From positions 1 through 43,121 of the forward strand of contig CAMDPX010000037.1 in NCBI GenBank assembly GCA_945905295.1: a stretch of DNA of 43,121 bases, in the 5' to 3' direction. The first letter of the stretch is position 1. Each line of letters opens with the position of its first letter. Shown one piece after another: positions 22,495-34,899 of the stretch. The DNA is from Planctomyces sp. SH-PL62. Lineage in GTDB: Bacteria > Planctomycetota > Planctomycetia > Planctomycetales > Planctomycetaceae. Made by a program: the position numbers and the translations under genes. The notes beneath the pieces were generated by a model that saw nothing but the letters and a program-made list of their open reading frames with translations, did not search any database and had not been told where the DNA came from.

Positions 22495-22535
22495 GGTTCA
22501 ATCCTTTGACTGAGGTAACCGTCGGCTGACTCTCC

Positions 22536-22634
22536 GAGGCTGTGAACTTTTTGGTAGCTGAAGTCGCCAGACTTCAGAGTTCGCCGAGAAAACTGAACTC
22601 TGGCGAGTTCAGCTACCAATTCTTTCACAGCCTC
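22536..22634. repeat. GTAG-headed REP pair nested in a longer inverted repeat
   Basis: GTAG (22554) and CTAC (22616) frame two hairpins, TGAAGTC-GCCA-GACTTCA and GAACTC-TGGC-GAGTTC, of the TCGCCAGA family. Outside these, GAGGCTGTGAA (22536-22546) pairs with TTCACAGCCTC (22624-22634). It lies upstream of the kinase gene. Confidence 0.87.
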
Positions 22635-22909
22635 TCCGAGTCGGCTCTCTCGTACTCTCAGTAGACACGAAGACGCCGGAGTGTAGCTGATGTCGCCACG
22701 CTTCGGGCTTCCCAGGCAAAGGATTCACGGTCGGCGGCCCCGTGGATGCAATGGACATACCAAGGCTCTCGGCCCGCCAGAAAAGCGTGGCACACCACGG
22801 ACCCCCCGTGAGATTTCAACGACAAGCCGCTCGGCGACCTGGCACAGTCGGCGCGATCCGTTGGCAGCGAGCGGCTCGTCATCGGACTTGTCCGATGTGA
22901 GATTGCCGA
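22635..22909. other. Non-coding gap with small inverted repeats
   Basis: No gene that I can support. A degenerate REP-like start (GTAGCTGATGTCGCCACGC) is seen at about 22683. Short inverted repeats AGCCGCTCG/CGAGCGGCT (22825-22833, 22868-22876) and ATCGGACTTGTCCGAT (22881-22896) follow; the last could end transcription of the pseudogene next to it. Confidence 0.5.
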
Positions 22910-23359: not shown

Positions 23360-23484
23360 GGGCGAAAACCAGCAGGTGCTTGCCGCGGTTGATCCCCACT
23401 AGCCCGCCGGTCTTCGGATCGTGAGCGAGACACAGACATCGGCAGTTCGTCATCATCAAGGGACTACCGTTGTCGCGATCTGTC
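23360..23484 (-). other. Short open remnant without identifiable gene
   Basis: Minus-strand reading gives a short stretch CRCLCLAHDPKTGGLVGINR followed by GKHLLVFAHP and a stop inside the adjacent repeat. It looks protein-like but is too short to place and has no start context; it may be a further decayed gene end. Otherwise nothing seen here. Confidence 0.3.
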
Positions 23485-23588
23485 CGGCTGATGGCCGTTG
23501 GCTGAAAGCTGATGGCTGGGATCACAAAATCCTCGGACCTCGTTGTCGGGATGACAGCCATCAGCTTTCGGCCAACAGCCGTCAGCCG
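23485..23588. repeat. Long modular inverted repeat (GCTGATGGC units), copy 1
   Basis: Arms of about 33 bases: GGCTGATGGCCGTTGGCTGA-AAGCTGATGGCTG and its near complement in front of 23588, with about 36 bases between them. The stop codon of the SMP-30-like gene (23582-23584) lies in one arm. Its blocks recur in the repeat at 25257-25369. Confidence 0.85.
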
Positions 23589-24616
23589 GGCATGACAGGC
23601 GACTTTGGCCCGGGCTGTTTCGTCCGCACGCTCAGCAACCAGTCGCCGCAGGTGATGAACAGTGTCCGGCGATCGTCACCACCGAACGTGCAATTCGTCA
23701 GCGTGTCGGTTGGCGTCGCGAGGTACGCCAACAGTTTTCCGTTTGGCGCGAGAACATGTATCCCCGGCTTCGTATCGAGCGTTTCGGAAGTGCCGCGTGT
23801 CTTGTGCAAACCGGCCGCGACATAAAGGTTGCCCTCCGCATCGACGCACAAGCCGTCGCCCCCTCGGCCGGGGGAGAAGTCGATGATCCGCCGCGTGTTC
23901 GTGGCCGTGCCGTCCGCTTTCAAGTCGTAGGCGAAGAGGCAGCGATTACGGTTCTCTCGCCCATCCGATTCGATCAGATACAGCGTGCGGCCATCGGGCG
24001 AGACTTCGACACCGTTGGGCATGTGGATGTCCGGCTCATGGAGGACTCGCGCGACCTTGCCGTCGGAGTCGATGCGATAGACCGAGCTCACGTTCAGCTT
24101 CTTGTCGTCCGTGTTTGGCAACCGCGATGTGAAGTAGATCCGCCCTTTCGCGTCGATCGTCAAATCGTTCGGCGCGCCGAGCGGATGGCCGTTGAACTGA
24201 TCGACCAGGACGGTGATCTCGCCCGTCTTCAAATCGGTGCGAGTCACTCGGCCAGACTTCCCTTCGCACGCCAGCAAGCTGCCGGAGTGATCGAAGAGCA
24301 ACCCGTTCGCCTCGCCGCTGTTCTCGCGATAGGTCGAGAGTTCGCGCGACTTCGGATTCCAAATCAGAATCTTCGCGCCGTAGGCATTCGTGAAGAAGAC
24401 TCGTCCATCGGGTGCGACGGCCGGACCTTCGGTGAAGACCTTTTGATCGACGATCTTCGTTTCTTCTCTCAGCGGACCTGCGAAGAAGTCGTCCGATTTC
24501 AAGCCGGCGTAAAGCTCCGAGATGCCGGCCGCTCGCGCGGACACGGCGAACAGCGTCATACCGGCAGCAGCGTTCGCTGCGAGAAACTCGCGCCGAGTGA
24601 CCGATCGAGATTTCAT
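23582..24616 (-). CDS. Tat-exported SMP-30/gluconolactonase-like protein
   Basis: A 344-aa six-bladed beta-propeller of the SMP-30/gluconolaconase/LRE-like family, whose members hydrolyse sugar lactones with one divalent metal. A twin-arginine signal (VTRREFLAANAAAG) opens it. Family segments: EGPAVAPDGRVFFTNAYG, GEANGLLFDHSGSLLACE, GAPNDLTIDAKGRIYFTS, HMPNGVEVSPDGRTLYLIES, RGGDGLCVDAEGNLYVAAGL and TNCTFGGDDRRTLFITCG. The Glu, the two Asn and the Asp that bind metal in the family have counterparts in EGP, PND, PNG and GDG. The start at 24616 is set by GAGGAGG 6 bases upstream; the open frame to 24697 is repeat DNA. Located next to a DinB-like gene on the same strand but separated by a REP pair. 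Confidence 0.87.
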   Translation of the reverse strand: MKSRSVTRREFLAANAAAGMTLFAVSARAAGISELYAGLKSDDFFAGPLREETKIVDQKVFTEGPAVAPDGRVFFTNAYGAKILIWNPKSRELSTYRENSGEANGLLFDHSGSLLACEGKSGRVTRTDLKTGEITVLVDQFNGHPLGAPNDLTIDAKGRIYFTSRLPNTDDKKLNVSSVYRIDSDGKVARVLHEPDIHMPNGVEVSPDGRTLYLIESDGRENRNRCLFAYDLKADGTATNTRRIIDFSPGRGGDGLCVDAEGNLYVAAGLHKTRGTSETLDTKPGIHVLAPNGKLLAYLATPTDTLTNCTFGGDDRRTLFITCGDWLLSVRTKQPGPKSPVMPG

Positions 24617-24648: not shown

Positions 24649-24728
24649 GTAGGTTGGGACTCCGTCCCGACCAGCCGATGGTTGAGACAATTCGCAAGTC
24701 GATTGGTCGGGACGGAGTCCCAACCTAC
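24649..24728. repeat. GTAG-headed REP pair (GGGACTCCGTCCC family), intergenic copy
   Basis: GTAGGTTGGGACTCCGTCCC at 24649 and its exact complement ending at 24728, about 32 bases between arms. The inner hairpin is GGGAC-TCC-GTCCC. Two related elements lie inside the giant gene at 29395-29464 and 30176-30250. Confidence 0.93.
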
Positions 24729-25223: not shown

Positions 25224-25256
25224 GGCGTTCCTTTTCTTCTTGCGAGCGTCCGTGTT

Positions 25257-25369
25257 TGGCCGTTGGCCGTCAGCCGAATGCCGATGGCCGTTATCCTTTT
25301 TCCCCGAGTGCTGGATGACTCAAAGAAAAGGATAACGGCCATCGGCTCACGGCTCACGGCATTCGGCCA
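25257..25369. repeat. Long modular inverted repeat (CCGATGGCC units), copy 2
   Basis: 44-bp arms (25257-25300 and 25326-25369). The inner 19 bases CGATGGCCGTTATCCTTTT pair perfectly; outer parts are built from GGCCG, GTTGGC, GAATGCC and GAGCC blocks in shuffled order. Related to 23485-23588. It lies between the stop of the giant gene and the DinB-like gene start. Confidence 0.88.
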
Positions 25370-25381
25370 GACAAATCTGGG

Positions 25382-28300
25382 CTACTGCTTTGGCGGGTTG
25401 GCCTCCTTCACGATCGCACCGTGCTCGTCGCTCATCACGAGCACCGAGAATTTTGCGACTGCGTCGAGGTCGTTGGTATTGAGGCTCGAATAATCGAAGC
25501 GGCCGCGGAGGTCGGTGTAGCCGTCTTTGTAGAACCGCGATGAGCCGTCAGGCCGCTGAGCGTAGACCTTCACATACGCCTTCGCGATTGGCTTGTTGGT
25601 GGTCGAGTGCGTGACCTTCACTTGGCCGTAGTTCTCGATGAGCTGCACGGTCAGCGAGTTCGAGTAGTACGCCTGCGTCTTCGTCTGGCCGCCGCCGGTG
25701 ATTTCGACGAGGACGTTCTTGTTGTGCAGATCCTTCGGCAGTTCGACCTTCTTCGACCCTTGAGTCGCTTCGGTCTTTTTCGTCCCTTCAGTCCCTTCCG
25801 GTCCACCACCCAGACCGCCGTTCGCCGCGACTTGCCGTTCGCGCAGCCCCACGGTGTCCACTCGGTTGGGTTGAATCATGCTGAACTGGCCGCGGAATTG
25901 TTGAACGAATGGGTTGCGGCTGAAGAGCAGCTCGACGTCCATCAGGTAGTAGCTGACTTTGACCTCGTCGAGGTTTTGGTGGTTGATCGTGAGCTGTTTC
26001 GCCTCGACAGTGAAATCGAAGTTCGGGTTGGTCGCGGCGAGCTGCGTCTGGTCTTGGTTGCGGTCGTCGGTGTCGATCTTCTTCGGGCCGGCTCCGTCGA
26101 TCTCGTCGAGCTGGGCCTTGATCGAGGCGAACGCATTTCGCCAGCGGTCCACCGGGTAGTCGGTGTATTTGGCGGCGATGGCTCGCGCGAGCTTCGGGTT
26201 GTCGGTGAAGAAATCGAGGTACGCCTGGAAGTAGTCGTATTGCAGCCGAGTCGGCAGCCGCTCCGGGTTCACGCGAGCGAACGTCGTCAGCGATTCTTCG
26301 ATGCGGTCCTGCAACAGCAGGTCGTAGGTCACGACCATCAGGTCATCGTCGGTCAGGCTGCGTTGGTACGAGAATTCGCGCAGAGAGCGGTGATATTGCT
26401 CGTTGAACTTCGCGTTGACGATCTGGCGTTGCTGGCCGAGTCGATGGGCTCGCGCGTTGACCAGCGGCTTGTAGTCGAGGTGCTCGTAAGTGCGACGCTC
26501 GACCGGGTTGATCGTCAGCAGCGTGCTGGCCAGCCGGCCGCCGCACTCGTTGACGAAGCCGTCTTGGTGTCGCAGGAATTCGTTGATCGGGGGGACTCGG
26601 TTGTGCAACAGGCCGTAGGACCAGAGCGTCATCTGGAAGGCGTGCCGGCTGCTCAGCAGCGAGATCGCCGCGTCGAAGAATTTCGGGTCGTGCATCCGCC
26701 ACGCCATCCGTTCGAGGTTCAGGCCGTGGACGTTGTGGTTGTTGAGGAACTTTAGGCAGTCGTCGGCCGAGGCGTATTGCGAGACGTAGTCCCAGCTCTC
26801 GGTGTCGATCTTGGTCGGTTTGTCGACGACGTTGAAGGTGCTCGGCGAGGCGAACGCGATCAGCTCGCCGTTCTTCGCGACGTGAATCGGGAAGTGCGGG
26901 AACTGGCCGGCGGCCGGGAAGTAGAAGAAGTAGTCCAGCGTCTGTGTGTGATACGGCTGCAGGTCCACATGCACGCTCTTGGTCGGCTGACCGTTGGCGA
27001 CGGGGATCGCTCCTTGCGGCACTTGCAGCAGCACGGTCAGTTTCTGCCGAGCGGAAGTCGGGTTCGTGACGACCACCTGGCAGCCATAGACGGTGTGAAT
27101 GACGAACTCATCGGCGACGTACTTGTCGATCTGCTCGCCGTTTTCCATGCGATGCCGGTCGCCGTGCCGGAAGAAATTCTGGCTGACGAGGATCGGCACC
27201 TTATCGGCGGCGGGCTGAGCGGCTTTGACCTCTTCATGGAAGACGATCATCGGGCTGCCGGCCGCGAGCGTCATCTGCGGACCATCGAATTTCGATTCAT
27301 GCTTCGCCGGCTCGAACGGCAGATCGAGCACCGCCAGCGCGAGCATCATCTCCGTGAAGTTGCGGCTCGCGTCCGCGATGTTCGTCGAGAGGAACGGTTT
27401 CGTCGGATCGTGCTGAGCGTAGTCGCGCCAGAACGAGTTGACCGTGATGAGTCCGGCGTGCTGCTCGGCGATGGCGAGGTGGTAGTAGTTGTTCTCCGCC
27501 CATTCCTTGGTCGGGTCCATCTTGCGGTAGAGCTGACGGACTTGGTCTATGAGGCGGTCGTGGTCGAAGAACTCCGCTTTGTCGTCAAGCTTCGCGCCAT
27601 CCATGTCCGCGACGGCGAGGTCGGGCCTGCCATTCTTGGTCGAGTCCTTCTTATCTGCTGCGGCTCCACCGCGCTTTCGGAACGCATCCTGCGGCTTGCC
27701 ATCGCGTTCGAGACCTCGCCGCAAACGATCGGTTCCGGCTTCTTCCTTGGCCTTCTCGCGAAGTCCGAGTTGCTGCTTGGCCGCCTTCTTGGCTTCGGCT
27801 TGTTCGCCCGCCATCCCACCCCCACCACCAAATCCTCCGAGTACTCGATTCGCCGGACGAGCCGCACCCGCGACCGGAGCCGGCGCATCGGCAAGGCGCT
27901 CGAACATCACTTCCGATTCCTTCAGTTGCCGTTCGAGATTCGATTTCAATCCGAGGCCGTCACTGGTCTCCAGCGAACTCCCCTTCGCTGCCGTGTCGAA
28001 CAGCAACAAGAACCGGTCGATGTTCGGCGGCTGCAACTTGAACAACTCGTCGATGTGCCGCGAGGTCTTCGGTCCCTCGCCGTTGATGTGCTGAGCGAGG
28101 AACACTCGCTCGGCCACGTTGAGCTGCCCGTGAGACCACGGTTGCAGGAACGGATCCACCTTGTCGTCCAGCAGCCAGCGATCGAGGAATGTCTTGTCCT
28201 TCTTGTTCGCGAGGTATGGCTTCACGACCGCATTGAAGAATTTGGGATCCTTCTTCGCGAGGAACACGTTGAGTTCATGGCAGGCGAACTTGGAATACTT

Positions 28301-31300
28301 TTCTCGCTGCTCTTCCGGCTTGAGCTTCGGCCAGTTGAGCAGGAACGAGAACTCGGCCAGCTTCGGATCGTGCGTCAGCGTCGTGAACAGCAGATAGACC
28401 CGCGCGAGACTGTCATACGCCTCGAACTTCGACGTGGCGATATCCGCCAACGTAAACGGCTGCCCGGCTCCGACGAGACTGATTCGCTTCTGCTGCGTGA
28501 AGTGCTTCTTCGGATCCAGCCCGTTCGCCAACCGCAAATCAATGAACGTCGACTTCGGTTCCTCAATCGCAACGCTCCGCCAAGTCGTGCTGAGCGGATC
28601 GCAGGCGACGACGTGCAGATGCTGATGCGCTCCCAGCAGATCACGCTTCAACACGATCTTGCCGTCCTTGTCCGGCAAAAGGTTCACGAACACCGACGAC
28701 GCTTCCGCGAGGAAGTCGAGATTTGCGAAGTCTCCACCGCGTGCAACCCCTGCCGCTTGTGACTCACCGCGCGCCATCGCGCTTGCTGGCGGCGGTCCCT
28801 TCGCTCCGAAATCATCGCCGACGGCCGCGATTTGCTCACCAGTCTCAGTCGAACGTAACACCCAGGGGTTCAGCAACAGCGACGGACGCTCCAGGGTGTT
28901 CCCCGGAAACTTCTTCGCGTACTTGCGGTCGATGATGTAACGATACTCGTCGCCGATGTTTCGTCCGGCCAGATACACCGACTCGGCCGGCGACGTGCGA
29001 ATCGCATACGGCTCGGCCTGCGTGATCCGAGCGAGATGATTCCCCGCCGGAAACGCCGGAGCAAACCGCGTCGCAAACAAATGCACGCGAGCAAACTTGT
29101 TCGCGTTGCTGAGCTGAATGACGAGATCCTTGTCATCCGCTTTGACACTCTCAACCTGCAACGCCTTGAGCGGTTTCGTCTCCAACTGCCGCACATTGCC
29201 GAGCACATACCCATGCTTCGTCTCTCCCGGAGCGATGCGAATCCGGACGTGCCGATTCAGCGACTTCAGCCACAGGTCGTAATCCCCTTCTTTCAACCCA
29301 CTGATCGTGATGAGTCCGTTCATGATCGTCAGGTTCTCGAAGCGATCAACGAGGAACGAATCGCCGCGCAGTTCGAGAAGGGAGAGCGCGGCGCGTAGGT
29401 TGGGACTCCGTCCCGACCCTTCCGCATCCTTCGCCAATACGGTCGGGACGGAGTCCCAACCTACGAACGGCAGCGTCAGCACTTCGCCGACTCGGCCGTG
29501 CAGCGATTGCGAATAGACATGCTCGTCCGGCCGAATCGGCCAAGCGTGCTGCGTCCCCTGCGGCCCGGTCGCCGTGATCGCGACGATGTCTTCCAACTGA
29601 CCGAGCGACACGCGACCAACCTTGTCCGACTTAAACGTGAAATGCACCGGGTCACGGAAGTCGCGATGTTTCAGAACGATTTGGATCGGCCGCGAAACCT
29701 TCGGCTCGCCCGTCTTGCCGAGCAGTTCCACAAAGTACCCAGCGCTGGTCCGGACCAAGTGCAGGTCTTCGATCTTGTCCGTCCGGTCGATCTCGTTGAA
29801 CGCGAACGATTCCTGAGCCGCCAGCGCGATCGTCTGATTCGTGCTGAGGACTTTGATTTGCCCGATCAACTGAAAACTCAGCGCCTGTGTCCGCGGCGGA
29901 ACGGAGAACTCGTGCGTCGATTCGCGGTCCTCGAACAACTTGAAATCCGGGATCTCGGTCGACGACGCAACGCCGTCGTGATCGGTCGAAACGATTTGCA
30001 GTTTGACCTGCTCAAGCAACTTCGAGCTGACCGGCGTCCCATTCAACGTGAGCTGCGGCCGAACGACAACGGTCGCCTTCTTGCGACTGAGCAACGATTC
30101 GCGATCGACGAAGATGCCAGCCGACAACGCGAACGCTTCCCCTTCATGCTGGAAGTAATCGAGACAGGCGTATTCGTAGGTTGGGATTCCATCCCGACCC
30201 TTCTTCGCGTCCTCGCCGCCCCGAGCGGTCGGGTTGGAAACCCAACCTACGAGGATCACCGGCTGCCTTCCCGGCTGATGTGTGAACGGCACAGCGATCT
30301 CGCCGTTCTTGTCGGCGACGTACTCATGCCCGCCCAACAGGATCTTCGCGTCATCGACTTTTTGATTCTTCTCATCCAGCACCGTGAAGACCTGCCCGGC
30401 CGGGACCGTCTTCGCCAGGAATTTCAGTTTCCCTTTGCGGATCAGCGCCCGGCTGCTCCGGCCGTTGCCGATGAAATCGACGACGTACACGCCCGGCTTC
30501 TTCAACTCCGGCAGTTCAAAGCGGCGACGGACGCGGCGAAACGACGTGTCGTTGTAGGTGTGCGTCGTCTCACGATTGGCGACCAGCCCGTCGAGATTTA
30601 CGTCGGTGTCCACCTCGCGGAGTTGCTCGCGATAGAAATTCTTCGTGTTGATCTCGAAGACCTTCACGATCAGGGTGCCGACATTCTTGACGTGCAGGTC
30701 CAGCGCGACTGGCTCATCGGCCGAGTACGTCGTGCGGTTTGTCGGATCGAATTCAATCTCGACCCGCTGCTTGAGTTGCTGGAAGAGTTCGGCAGGCAGC
30801 ATCGCCGCCCATTGCTCCGGCTCGCCGAGGCCATTGAGGATCTTCGTCTCGGCGAAGAGATGTTTCAGGTAGATGTCGTTGATGAACGGCTCGAACTCCT
30901 TCGGGTTCGGGGCGTCGAGCAAGAAATGTTGCAGGTAACTGCGAACGAGCGGCTCGTCATTCGCGATCGGCGGCAGCAACGATCCGGGCCGCAGGTCGAT
31001 CCCGACGTTAGCGGGGAATTGCTTCAGCGCCGGCGATTCGGCCATCGCTTTCGACAAGTATCCGACCGGCCGAGGCAGTTGCAGATACGCGAGGAAGCGA
31101 TCTTTATCGAGCTTGCCCAGCGACCGATCGAGCCACAACCGGTGATACAGCGTCTGCGCCTTGAGCGCGTTCTGCACCGGCGGCAGTTTCGCATTGAACG
31201 CGATCAGCCGATCGAGATACGCGGCCATCGCCTTCGAATCGTGCTGCCAGTCCTCATCCGGCCCCGGCTGCAACTTGATGAGCGACGCGACCACCCAATG

Positions 31301-32017
31301 CTGATTGTTGACGAGGTCCGGCTTAGCCTTCAGCAACTCGTCCAACTGCGCCTGCGTTAGCAACCGATGAATGTTGAACTGCCCGAAGCCGCCAGAGTTC
31401 GGATGCCCCCAGTCATCGAGAATCAACTTCGTCAACCCCGCGTAATTCGGCCGAGCCAACCGCGAGATCAAATGCCTCCGCCGATCACCGTCCAGCTTCT
31501 CATTGATCAGCCAGTCGAGCGCCGCGTCCTCGAAGCCATCGGTGTTGGCATGCTGAAACGCTCGCGGCATCAGAGCGGCACGAGTGATCTGCTGCGGATC
31601 GAGCTTCGTCGGCAGGTTCGGTTCAACGCCAAGCTCTTCCTTCTGATGCCCGAAGTTCACCCCCAGTTTGTTGCGGAGGAACTCCAGCGTCTTCTGCGGA
31701 TTCTTATCGTAGGTCAGCAACGCCTGCCGCGCGAGGATCTCGTTGACGCGCTGCGTGTGCCCGATCTTTTGAATCCATTGCGTGACGAGCGGCTCGACCT
31801 TGTCAAACTGCTCGGCCTGCTGCGCGTGCAGGCAGTGGAAGTAATAGAAGTCTTCCGTCCCCGGCACGAGCTGCTTGAGCGGCACCGCTCGATCCGGCGC
31901 GAGGGCGAAGTCCTCAATGAAATTGATCTCACCGGCACGAGTTTGTGCGATCCCGACTGTTCCAACGCCAATCGCCAACGTGACGCCAACCGCTCGCAGC
32001 CAATGAGACCATCGCAT
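25382..32017 (-). CDS. Giant secreted protein with macroglobulin-like segments, function unknown
   Basis: A 2211-aa exported protein (signal MRWSHWLRAVGVTLAIGVGT-VGIAQTRA). The first 400 residues are mostly helical. At about 420-560 a segment reads like the MG (macroglobulin) beta-domains of alpha-2-macroglobulin relatives (TTYSADEPVALDLHVKNVGT, PGVYVVDFIGNGRSSRALIR). More beta-rich segments follow to about 1060, then helical regions. A low-complexity stretch (about 1390-1480, with GGFGGGGGMAGEQ and many Lys/Ala/Asp) divides the chain. The second half has VVVTNPTSARQKLTVLLQVP and ends with another beta-domain (VQLIENYGQVKVTHSTTNKP). I see no thioester CGEQ motif, so it should not trap proteases covalently. 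Two REP pairs are translated in frame (about residues 590-614 and 852-875). GAGG precedes the ATG by about 6 bases. The stop TAG falls in a GTAG sequence. Confidence 0.75.
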   Translation of the reverse strand: MRWSHWLRAVGVTLAIGVGTVGIAQTRAGEINFIEDFALAPDRAVPLKQLVPGTEDFYYFHCLHAQQAEQFDKVEPLVTQWIQKIGHTQRVNEILARQALLTYDKNPQKTLEFLRNKLGVNFGHQKEELGVEPNLPTKLDPQQITRAALMPRAFQHANTDGFEDAALDWLINEKLDGDRRRHLISRLARPNYAGLTKLILDDWGHPNSGGFGQFNIHRLLTQAQLDELLKAKPDLVNNQHWVVASLIKLQPGPDEDWQHDSKAMAAYLDRLIAFNAKLPPVQNALKAQTLYHRLWLDRSLGKLDKDRFLAYLQLPRPVGYLSKAMAESPALKQFPANVGIDLRPGSLLPPIANDEPLVRSYLQHFLLDAPNPKEFEPFINDIYLKHLFAETKILNGLGEPEQWAAMLPAELFQQLKQRVEIEFDPTNRTTYSADEPVALDLHVKNVGTLIVKVFEINTKNFYREQLREVDTDVNLDGLVANRETTHTYNDTSFRRVRRRFELPELKKPGVYVVDFIGNGRSSRALIRKGKLKFLAKTVPAGQVFTVLDEKNQKVDDAKILLGGHEYVADKNGEIAVPFTHQPGRQPVILVGWVSNPTARGGEDAKKGRDGIPTYEYACLDYFQHEGEAFALSAGIFVDRESLLSRKKATVVVRPQLTLNGTPVSSKLLEQVKLQIVSTDHDGVASSTEIPDFKLFEDRESTHEFSVPPRTQALSFQLIGQIKVLSTNQTIALAAQESFAFNEIDRTDKIEDLHLVRTSAGYFVELLGKTGEPKVSRPIQIVLKHRDFRDPVHFTFKSDKVGRVSLGQLEDIVAITATGPQGTQHAWPIRPDEHVYSQSLHGRVGEVLTLPFVGWDSVPTVLAKDAEGSGRSPNLRAALSLLELRGDSFLVDRFENLTIMNGLITISGLKEGDYDLWLKSLNRHVRIRIAPGETKHGYVLGNVRQLETKPLKALQVESVKADDKDLVIQLSNANKFARVHLFATRFAPAFPAGNHLARITQAEPYAIRTSPAESVYLAGRNIGDEYRYIIDRKYAKKFPGNTLERPSLLLNPWVLRSTETGEQIAAVGDDFGAKGPPPASAMARGESQAAGVARGGDFANLDFLAEASSVFVNLLPDKDGKIVLKRDLLGAHQHLHVVACDPLSTTWRSVAIEEPKSTFIDLRLANGLDPKKHFTQQKRISLVGAGQPFTLADIATSKFEAYDSLARVYLLFTTLTHDPKLAEFSFLLNWPKLKPEEQREKYSKFACHELNVFLAKKDPKFFNAVVKPYLANKKDKTFLDRWLLDDKVDPFLQPWSHGQLNVAERVFLAQHINGEGPKTSRHIDELFKLQPPNIDRFLLLFDTAAKGSSLETSDGLGLKSNLERQLKESEVMFERLADAPAPVAGAARPANRVLGGFGGGGGMAGEQAEAKKAAKQQLGLREKAKEEAGTDRLRRGLERDGKPQDAFRKRGGAAADKKDSTKNGRPDLAVADMDGAKLDDKAEFFDHDRLIDQVRQLYRKMDPTKEWAENNYYHLAIAEQHAGLITVNSFWRDYAQHDPTKPFLSTNIADASRNFTEMMLALAVLDLPFEPAKHESKFDGPQMTLAAGSPMIVFHEEVKAAQPAADKVPILVSQNFFRHGDRHRMENGEQIDKYVADEFVIHTVYGCQVVVTNPTSARQKLTVLLQVPQGAIPVANGQPTKSVHVDLQPYHTQTLDYFFYFPAAGQFPHFPIHVAKNGELIAFASPSTFNVVDKPTKIDTESWDYVSQYASADDCLKFLNNHNVHGLNLERMAWRMHDPKFFDAAISLLSSRHAFQMTLWSYGLLHNRVPPINEFLRHQDGFVNECGGRLASTLLTINPVERRTYEHLDYKPLVNARAHRLGQQRQIVNAKFNEQYHRSLREFSYQRSLTDDDLMVVTYDLLLQDRIEESLTTFARVNPERLPTRLQYDYFQAYLDFFTDNPKLARAIAAKYTDYPVDRWRNAFASIKAQLDEIDGAGPKKIDTDDRNQDQTQLAATNPNFDFTVEAKQLTINHQNLDEVKVSYYLMDVELLFSRNPFVQQFRGQFSMIQPNRVDTVGLRERQVAANGGLGGGPEGTEGTKKTEATQGSKKVELPKDLHNKNVLVEITGGGQTKTQAYYSNSLTVQLIENYGQVKVTHSTTNKPIAKAYVKVYAQRPDGSSRFYKDGYTDLRGRFDYSSLNTNDLDAVAKFSVLVMSDEHGAIVKEANPPKQ
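25745..25805 (-). repeat. Short GGGACTGAA-type direct repeats inside the giant gene
   Basis: The minus strand reads GGAAGGGACTGAAGGGACGA and then AAAAGACCGAAGCGACTCAA, i.e. degenerate 8-9-base units, encoding a Thr/Glu/Lys/Gly linker (EGTEGTKKTEATQGSKK) between two beta-rich segments. It looks like replication-slippage growth of a linker. Confidence 0.6.
29395..29464. repeat. GTAG-headed REP pair inside the giant gene, copy A
   Basis: GTAGGTTGGGACTCCGTCCC at 29395 and its exact complement ending at 29464. Read in the gene's frame it gives FVGWDSVPTVLAKDAEGSGR-SPNL at about residues 850-876, unlike the sequence on either side. Same family as 24649-24728. Confidence 0.93.
30176..30250. repeat. 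GTAG-headed REP pair inside the giant gene, copy B
   Basis: GTAGGTTGGGATTCCATCCC at 30176; the other arm ends GGGTTGGAAACCCAACCTAC at 30250. The stems are GGGAT-TCC-ATCCC and GGGTT-TCC-AACCC: the bases differ from copy A but pair within each hairpin. 75 bases, in frame, encoding VGWVSNPTARGGEDAKKGRD-GIPTYE at about residues 590-615. Confidence 0.92.
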
Positions 32018-32309
32018 GGGAACCTCGCTGAAAAGTGAGAAACGAGTTCAAAGCCGTTCCGCGACCGTCAGGGAGCGGCCCATCTTGTCGAAGACGGGCC
32101 GCTCCCTGACGGTCGCGGTACGGCTGCCGAGATCGGATCAAAGAGTAGAGACCAACTGCGCAGAATGTTTGTCGTGTCACGACAGGGACGTGCCAAGAGG
32201 CGGTCGTCTTAGAAAAAGTTCCTGCGGATTCTACAAATGCCGAGACAACAACGCAGAGAAGCGGTTGTTGGAACAGATCTCCGATGATTGGCGTCGGGGG
32301 ACGCGGCCA
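32018..32309. other. Intergenic region between the giant gene and the Uma2 gene
   Basis: 292 bases upstream of the giant gene and downstream of the Uma2-like gene, both on the minus strand. Apart from the inverted repeat at 32052-32125 I see no gene; the rest (32126-32309) shows no clear hairpin or coding signal. It should contain the promoter of the giant gene. Confidence 0.55.
32052..32125. repeat. Inverted repeat upstream of the giant gene
   Basis: 30-bp arms (32052-32081 and 32096-32125) with a single mismatch, containing CCGCGACCGTCAGGGAGCGG, and a 14-base spacer. No GTAG head. A stable hairpin 35 bases upstream of the giant gene's ATG. Confidence 0.9.
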
Positions 32310-34826: not shown

Positions 34827-34899
34827 CATTCGTCGTCTCCTTCCATTCGTCGGGCTCTTTTCAATCAAGTGCCCGACGAATGAAAGGAGACGACGAATG
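34827..34899. repeat. Inverted repeat after lysS
   Basis: 29-bp arms (34827-34855 and 34871-34899) with one mismatch, containing CATTCGTCGTCTCCTT and CATTCGTCGGGC. It begins 20 bases after the lysS stop and can serve as its terminator. Confidence 0.9.

Follow-up and report, generated by a model that had tools for sequence, protein, structure and literature searches.

Window and in-frame doublet

The window is the whole stretch of DNA that was analysed, 43,121 nucleotides long; it is the entire contig C37 of an 8.6-Mb, 476-contig assembly (genome G000). The features below are given in window coordinates.

25382-32017, minus strand: host gene, an ORF of 2211 aa with orthologues in congeners and in more distant planctomycetes; dN/dS about 0.12
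30176-30250 (75 nt), minus strand (reading frame): copy B, an in-frame REP doublet (REPIN), residues 590-614 of the 2211-aa gene
30176-30199, plus strand: REP hairpin 1 of copy B, GTAGGTTGGGATTCCATCCCGACC
30200-30226, no strand: spacer of copy B, 27 nt
30227-30250, minus strand: REP hairpin 2 of copy B (inverted), GTAGGTTGGGTTTCCAACCCGACC on the minus strand
29395-29464, minus strand: copy A, another in-frame REP doublet of this family, starting at residue 852; other types at the same site in congeners
25780-25815 (approximate), minus strand: site C, a low-complexity linker near residue 2070; empty in G000
24649-24728, no strand: third doublet of this family, in an intergenic position according to the gene calling used; three other palindrome types at this spot in congeners

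Both ends of copy B (GTAG and CTAC) are intact. Within the minus-strand frame 25382-32017 the element encodes VGWVSNPTARGGEDAKKGRDGIPTY followed by E, residues 590-614. Where the two arms diverge, the changes compensate one another (GGGAT-TCC-ATCCC versus GGGTT-TCC-AACCC), so both hairpins remain paired. The hairpin is 24 nt long with GTAG at one end, within the range of GTAG REPs (imperfect palindromes of 20-40 bp). The pattern GTAGGNNGGGN7CCC (up to 1 mismatch) occurred 6 times in the window with 0.29 expected, and none of the shuffles reached 6; in the whole of G000, the family pattern was found 140 times forward and 154 times in reverse, with 0 and 1 matches for a reversed-pattern control. 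As is usual for REPs, the copies are many and, judged by all long palindromes sampled, of any family, mostly outside genes, and the family includes inverted doublets of the REPIN kind. Doublets range from 48 to over 120 bp; their spacers vary widely in length and are mostly unrelated among loci, some of those near RAYT genes being shared. Copy B is real, lies far beyond chance and belongs, as a REP doublet, to a GTAG family associated with RAYTs. The sequence-only reading, in which a 75-nt REP pair with GTAG ends lies in frame inside the giant gene, was borne out by the coordinates, the translation, the family counts and the dN/dS of the host gene.

Other long palindromes of several families are present in the window (22525-22645, 23481-23592, 25253-25373, 32052-32125 and 34827-34899). 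All five lie outside genes by the gene calling used; some are kept in congeners and some occur only in G000. A dispersed repeat of about 130 bp (G000:C1 near 131147-131285; L106:11147-11285) has over 20 near-identical copies in G000 and many fewer in congeners; it resembles a distinct, recent family of MITE-like elements.

RAYT-like genes and end preferences

Copy-B-family doublets flank two RAYT-like genes of G000:

1414-2223 of L071: RAYT-like gene, flanked by copy-B-family doublets
132-941 of L072: RAYT-like gene, flanked by copy-B-family doublets

In both proteins the N-terminus is encoded by a REP arm (VGTESQPT). Both pass the Pfam Y1_Tnp cut-off and score 58 and 52 bits against NCBIfam REP_Tyr_transpos, under its cut-off of 80. 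At these two loci a cognate RAYT is flanked by the same REP, as in REPINs. A third RAYT (L070), which passes the REP_Tyr_transpos cut-off, adjoins GTAGGGTGGG palindromes. From the family link we infer that a RAYT probably moved the copy-B doublets. Of the 132 REP ends, 88 are flanked by C at position -1 and 54 by T at -2. Three Y1 transposase genes (L067, L068, L069) are flanked by palindromes beginning GGGGTCGGG, a second family with its own putative transposases.

Host gene and protein

The host-gene frame is open in the full-length congeneric orthologues, and dN/dS between G000 and seven congeners of the main clade is 0.11-0.13, indicating purifying selection; the host reading frame is therefore real. 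No Pfam or NCBIfam model matched the protein. An AlphaFold2 model covering residues 425-1000 (mean pLDDT 81) shows a chain of beta domains, and the best Foldseek matches of this part were CD109, complement C3/C4/C5 and alpha-2-macroglobulin (E to 4.5e-10). TM-scores were low, so the predicted likeness is limited to the level of the domain chain.

Copy B corresponds to model residues 166-190. Between strands 159-170 and 188-200 of the model, pLDDT falls below 50 over residues 172-184; the copy-B peptide is predicted to be the disordered tip of a beta-hairpin, an unstructured surface loop. Copy A, 260 residues downstream of copy B, sits in the model's other long stretch with pLDDT below 50 (430-448).

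Two copies of the giant gene are present in G006 (G006:C126 and G006:C24), the second identical to that of G004 over the region compared, which may reflect strain mixing or contamination of that assembly. The gene in G009 (G009:C19:35681-37174) is reduced to broken fragments with in-frame stops and is apparently a pseudogene.

Orthologous sites in the host gene

Orthologous contigs were taken from separately assembled, metagenome-assembled Planctomycetota genomes; isolate names pointing to lakes suggest a freshwater genus. Site B is empty in five same-genus orthologues (G004, G006, G010, G011, G003) and in nearly all of the more distant orthologues aligned. The empty site holds three native codons between Leu and Glu (e.g. 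V-R-G or T-H-G); in the outgroup G012 about seven additional, unrelated residues stand there. Six genomes are filled, each with a different REP type: GTAGGTTGGG in G000, GTGGGACAGG in G002, GTGGGGCACG in G005, GTAGCCAAGG in G007, a single GTAGGGCGGG hairpin in G001 and the GTCTCGCC type in G008. Some of these types are themselves repeated: G000 has 425 hairpins of the GTGGGGCACG pattern (up to 2 mismatches) and G005 has 162, and GTGGGACAGG-like hairpins occur 9 times in G002 and 72 times in G006.

All six filled alleles start after the same Leu codon and stop before the same Glu codon. In G000, 75 nt stand in place of 9 nt, and the same 9 nt are lost in all six. The gain is thus 22 residues net and not the 25 first proposed; the expectation that a length divisible by three could insert without a frameshift held insofar as the frame is open through the element, but the insertion was not clean. 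The prediction that orthologues would lack residues of about 590-614 was likewise right for five congeners and nearly all outgroups, and wrong for the five congeners that carry another REP type within the same boundaries. Conservation of the segment had been named as evidence against insertion; in the alignment its residues differ between species and are absent from five congeners.

Clean insertion of the IS200/IS605 kind loses no target sequence. Here, 9 nt were replaced at site B and about 12 nt at residue 820 of a PSD-type gene. No target-site duplication, the mark of a MITE, is visible at sites with an empty orthologue, and a classical MITE was rejected on this ground. The filled and empty orthologues show that a doublet came to lie in a loop that tolerates it and took the place of 9-12 nt of the target.

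In the flanking-gene tree the filled site-B alleles are not monophyletic. Gene trees conflict along the host gene, which suggests recombination between species, able to scatter one old insertion. One flanking codon only is linked to the filled state (Y for F in four of the six filled alleles); G012 also has Y, and this single codon was not taken as a decisive sign of common descent. The non-monophyly and the single associated codon weaken the case for shared descent of the site-B insertion. Site-B spacers are mostly at chance similarity (among ten pairs, G002-G007 alone reaches p 0.016), and a shared spacer was therefore rejected as proof of overwriting.

At site A the types also differ between congeners, broadly into GTAGGTTGG and GTAGGTCAG classes, within identical boundaries; the spacers between different arms show a modest likeness (G006-G001, z 3.3, p 0.006). 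Site C is filled in frame in three genomes: G002 and G005 share a palindrome type, and G010 has another.

Genus-wide survey and single loci

Long inverted repeats were counted in about 558 kb of the genus: 161 were found, and none in block-shuffled controls. Thirty of the 161 (any family; about 19%) fall within genes as called by a simple method based on codon usage, a few of them with a weak coding signal on one side. As 85-92% of the DNA is coding, genes are avoided, yet not spared. The hosts include gamma-glutamyltranspeptidase (gGT), a FadB-like fusion, and SecA-like, transglutaminase-like and planctomycete cytochrome-c families; close orthologues of the SecA-like gene were not found, which makes it uninformative on type turnover.

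Of the 22 orthologous sites where two or more species have palindromes, 18 held at least two palindrome types (six of seven intragenic, 12 of 15 intergenic), with types clustered at a similarity cut-off chosen by the author. This tally is conservative, because some single or degenerate hairpins (e.g. G007 and G001 at site B) are scored as empty and two gGT stem subtypes are counted as one type. Across the genus, orthologous sites as a rule differ in palindrome type. Co-location in intergenic DNA is unsurprising because the gaps are short; intragenic co-location is not so explained.

The gGT loop has CACG stems in G000 and G002 and CAGG stems in G010, G007, G006 and G005, in both hairpins. Doublets of the two kinds have the same length and spacing and a similar spacer; single hairpins occur in G004 and G009, and a non-REP linker in G011, G003 and G001. 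The stem difference is, as judged from these alleles, a concerted change in place. In a TgpA-like gene, G010 and G002 have one arm with the same or similar following sequence, and the inverted second arm is present in G000 only. One site of the PSD-type gene is filled in G000 only; its residue 1271 site holds three types, whose boundaries differ. The FadB-like linker is filled in G000 only, where 12 nt of the spacer match the native linker of G002 in register (base-shuffle p 0.0045, codon-shuffle p 0.11), a likeness that is suggestive at most of an origin of the spacer from the native linker.

Origin of the different types

We consider it probable that copy B is a RAYT-associated GTAG doublet that replaced three beta-hairpin codons, and that sites A and B each go back to an old insertion whose arms were later overwritten and which was spread by recombination. 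A GTAG doublet of a RAYT family would have landed in a beta-hairpin tip of a giant protein with alpha-2-macroglobulin-like domains, at the cost of three codons. It may have persisted because the doublet and the lost target are both multiples of three, the frame stayed open and the peptide would form an unstructured surface loop. The arms of the one old insertion would subsequently have been overwritten by other REP types, either by REP single strands annealing to REP ends or by template switching between inverted arms, and recombination would have carried the insertion among species. A more general form, in which such sites are fixed sockets where other REP families, acting in trans, overwrite the resident arms and leave the place, the frame and in some cases the spacer as they were, is put forward tentatively.

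It is quite possible, though somewhat short of an even chance, that there was no overwriting and that different types repeatedly entered the same permissive loops and gaps through tolerance and a weak target preference. The filled genomes are scattered in the tree, the ends prefer C at -1 and T at -2, boundaries at residue 1271 of the PSD-type gene are unequal, and intergenic coincidence is expected where gaps are short; but six genomes share both site-B boundaries and the 9-nt loss, the boundaries at site A are identical too, and the gGT stems change in concert around a similar spacer. The identical boundaries and target loss at A and B, with the concerted gGT change, favour overwriting of an existing REP; the scattered filled alleles, the mostly chance-level site-B spacers and the unequal PSD boundaries point in some cases to repeated insertion. 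For sites A and B, overwriting has a modest edge over it.

A local origin of the palindromes, by template switching of the polymerase (homogenisation of arms, inverted duplication) and with a minor role for RAYT mobility, would fit the TgpA-like gene, where one arm has become two around the same spacer; template-switch homogenisation of arms is documented in coding DNA (PMC8604942). We regard such an origin as improbable: hundreds of unlinked near-identical 24-nt arms, also around RAYT genes, require transfer between loci, and the 12-nt match between spacer and native linker at the FadB-like site, which would also speak for it, is weak under codon shuffling. Occurrence at the same place in several species would suit a conserved functional loop that is palindromic by chance, but this is contradicted by the alignment, with residues that differ among species and are missing from five congeners and nearly all outgroups, and by the low pLDDT; its probability is very small. 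Just as small is that of an assembly or frame artefact: the genome is a 476-contig, metagenome-assembled one, but separately assembled congeneric genomes have in-frame REPs at the same site and the arm family is abundant in G000.

The genus bears on the general problem of how REPs spread and persist. In-frame orthologous sites that are filled, empty or re-typed give direct access to boundaries, target loss, single-arm intermediates and type replacement, and the reading frame screens such events. This is a route by which selfish DNA could keep feeding new surface-loop sequence into ordinary proteins; if the socket reading is true, protein loops are periodically rewritten by competing RAYT/REP systems.

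Comparison with known systems

Rickettsia palindromic elements (RPEs) are palindromic repeats translated in frame inside functional genes. The palindromes described here work alike, being in frame in a functional gene, but RPEs are rickettsial and the host here is a Planctomycetota genus, so that the two are set apart by lineage; what marks the present system is its association with RAYTs and the turnover of types at fixed sites. To call such insertions rarely noted beyond Rickettsia went too far: intragenic GTAG and CGTC REPs are listed for many species, with the highest number of GTAG ones in the verrucomicrobium O. terrae, and in recB of Xanthomonas different REPs occupy roughly one site (Di Nocera et al. 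2013, PMC3733652). In-frame REP insertion was thus already known; type turnover at fixed in-frame sites looks new. Our literature search found no account of in-frame sites at which REP types turn over across a genus, though one may exist.

Template-switch homogenisation (PMC8604942) shares the concerted change of inverted arms in genes, but concerns short local repeats of yeast, whereas dispersed multi-copy families are involved here. Different REP classes also occur at orthologous RAYT genes of related Pseudomonas and Stenotrophomonas strains (PMC3686654); there the common chromosomal place is beside RAYT genes, and here it is within host proteins and at ordinary intergenic sites. The closest likeness is to GTAG REPs and REPINs with RAYTs (PMC3733652; Bertels and Rainey 2011, PMC3116915), with which the family shares the GTAG foot, the short palindrome, inverted doublets, hundreds of copies, members that flank RAYT genes and some copies inside ORFs. 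REP doublet spacings in SBW25 cluster at 71 and 110 bp (PMC3116915), whereas the doublets here range from 48 to >120 bp with mostly unrelated spacers, and in the genus-wide comparison differences of type at orthologous sites are the rule.
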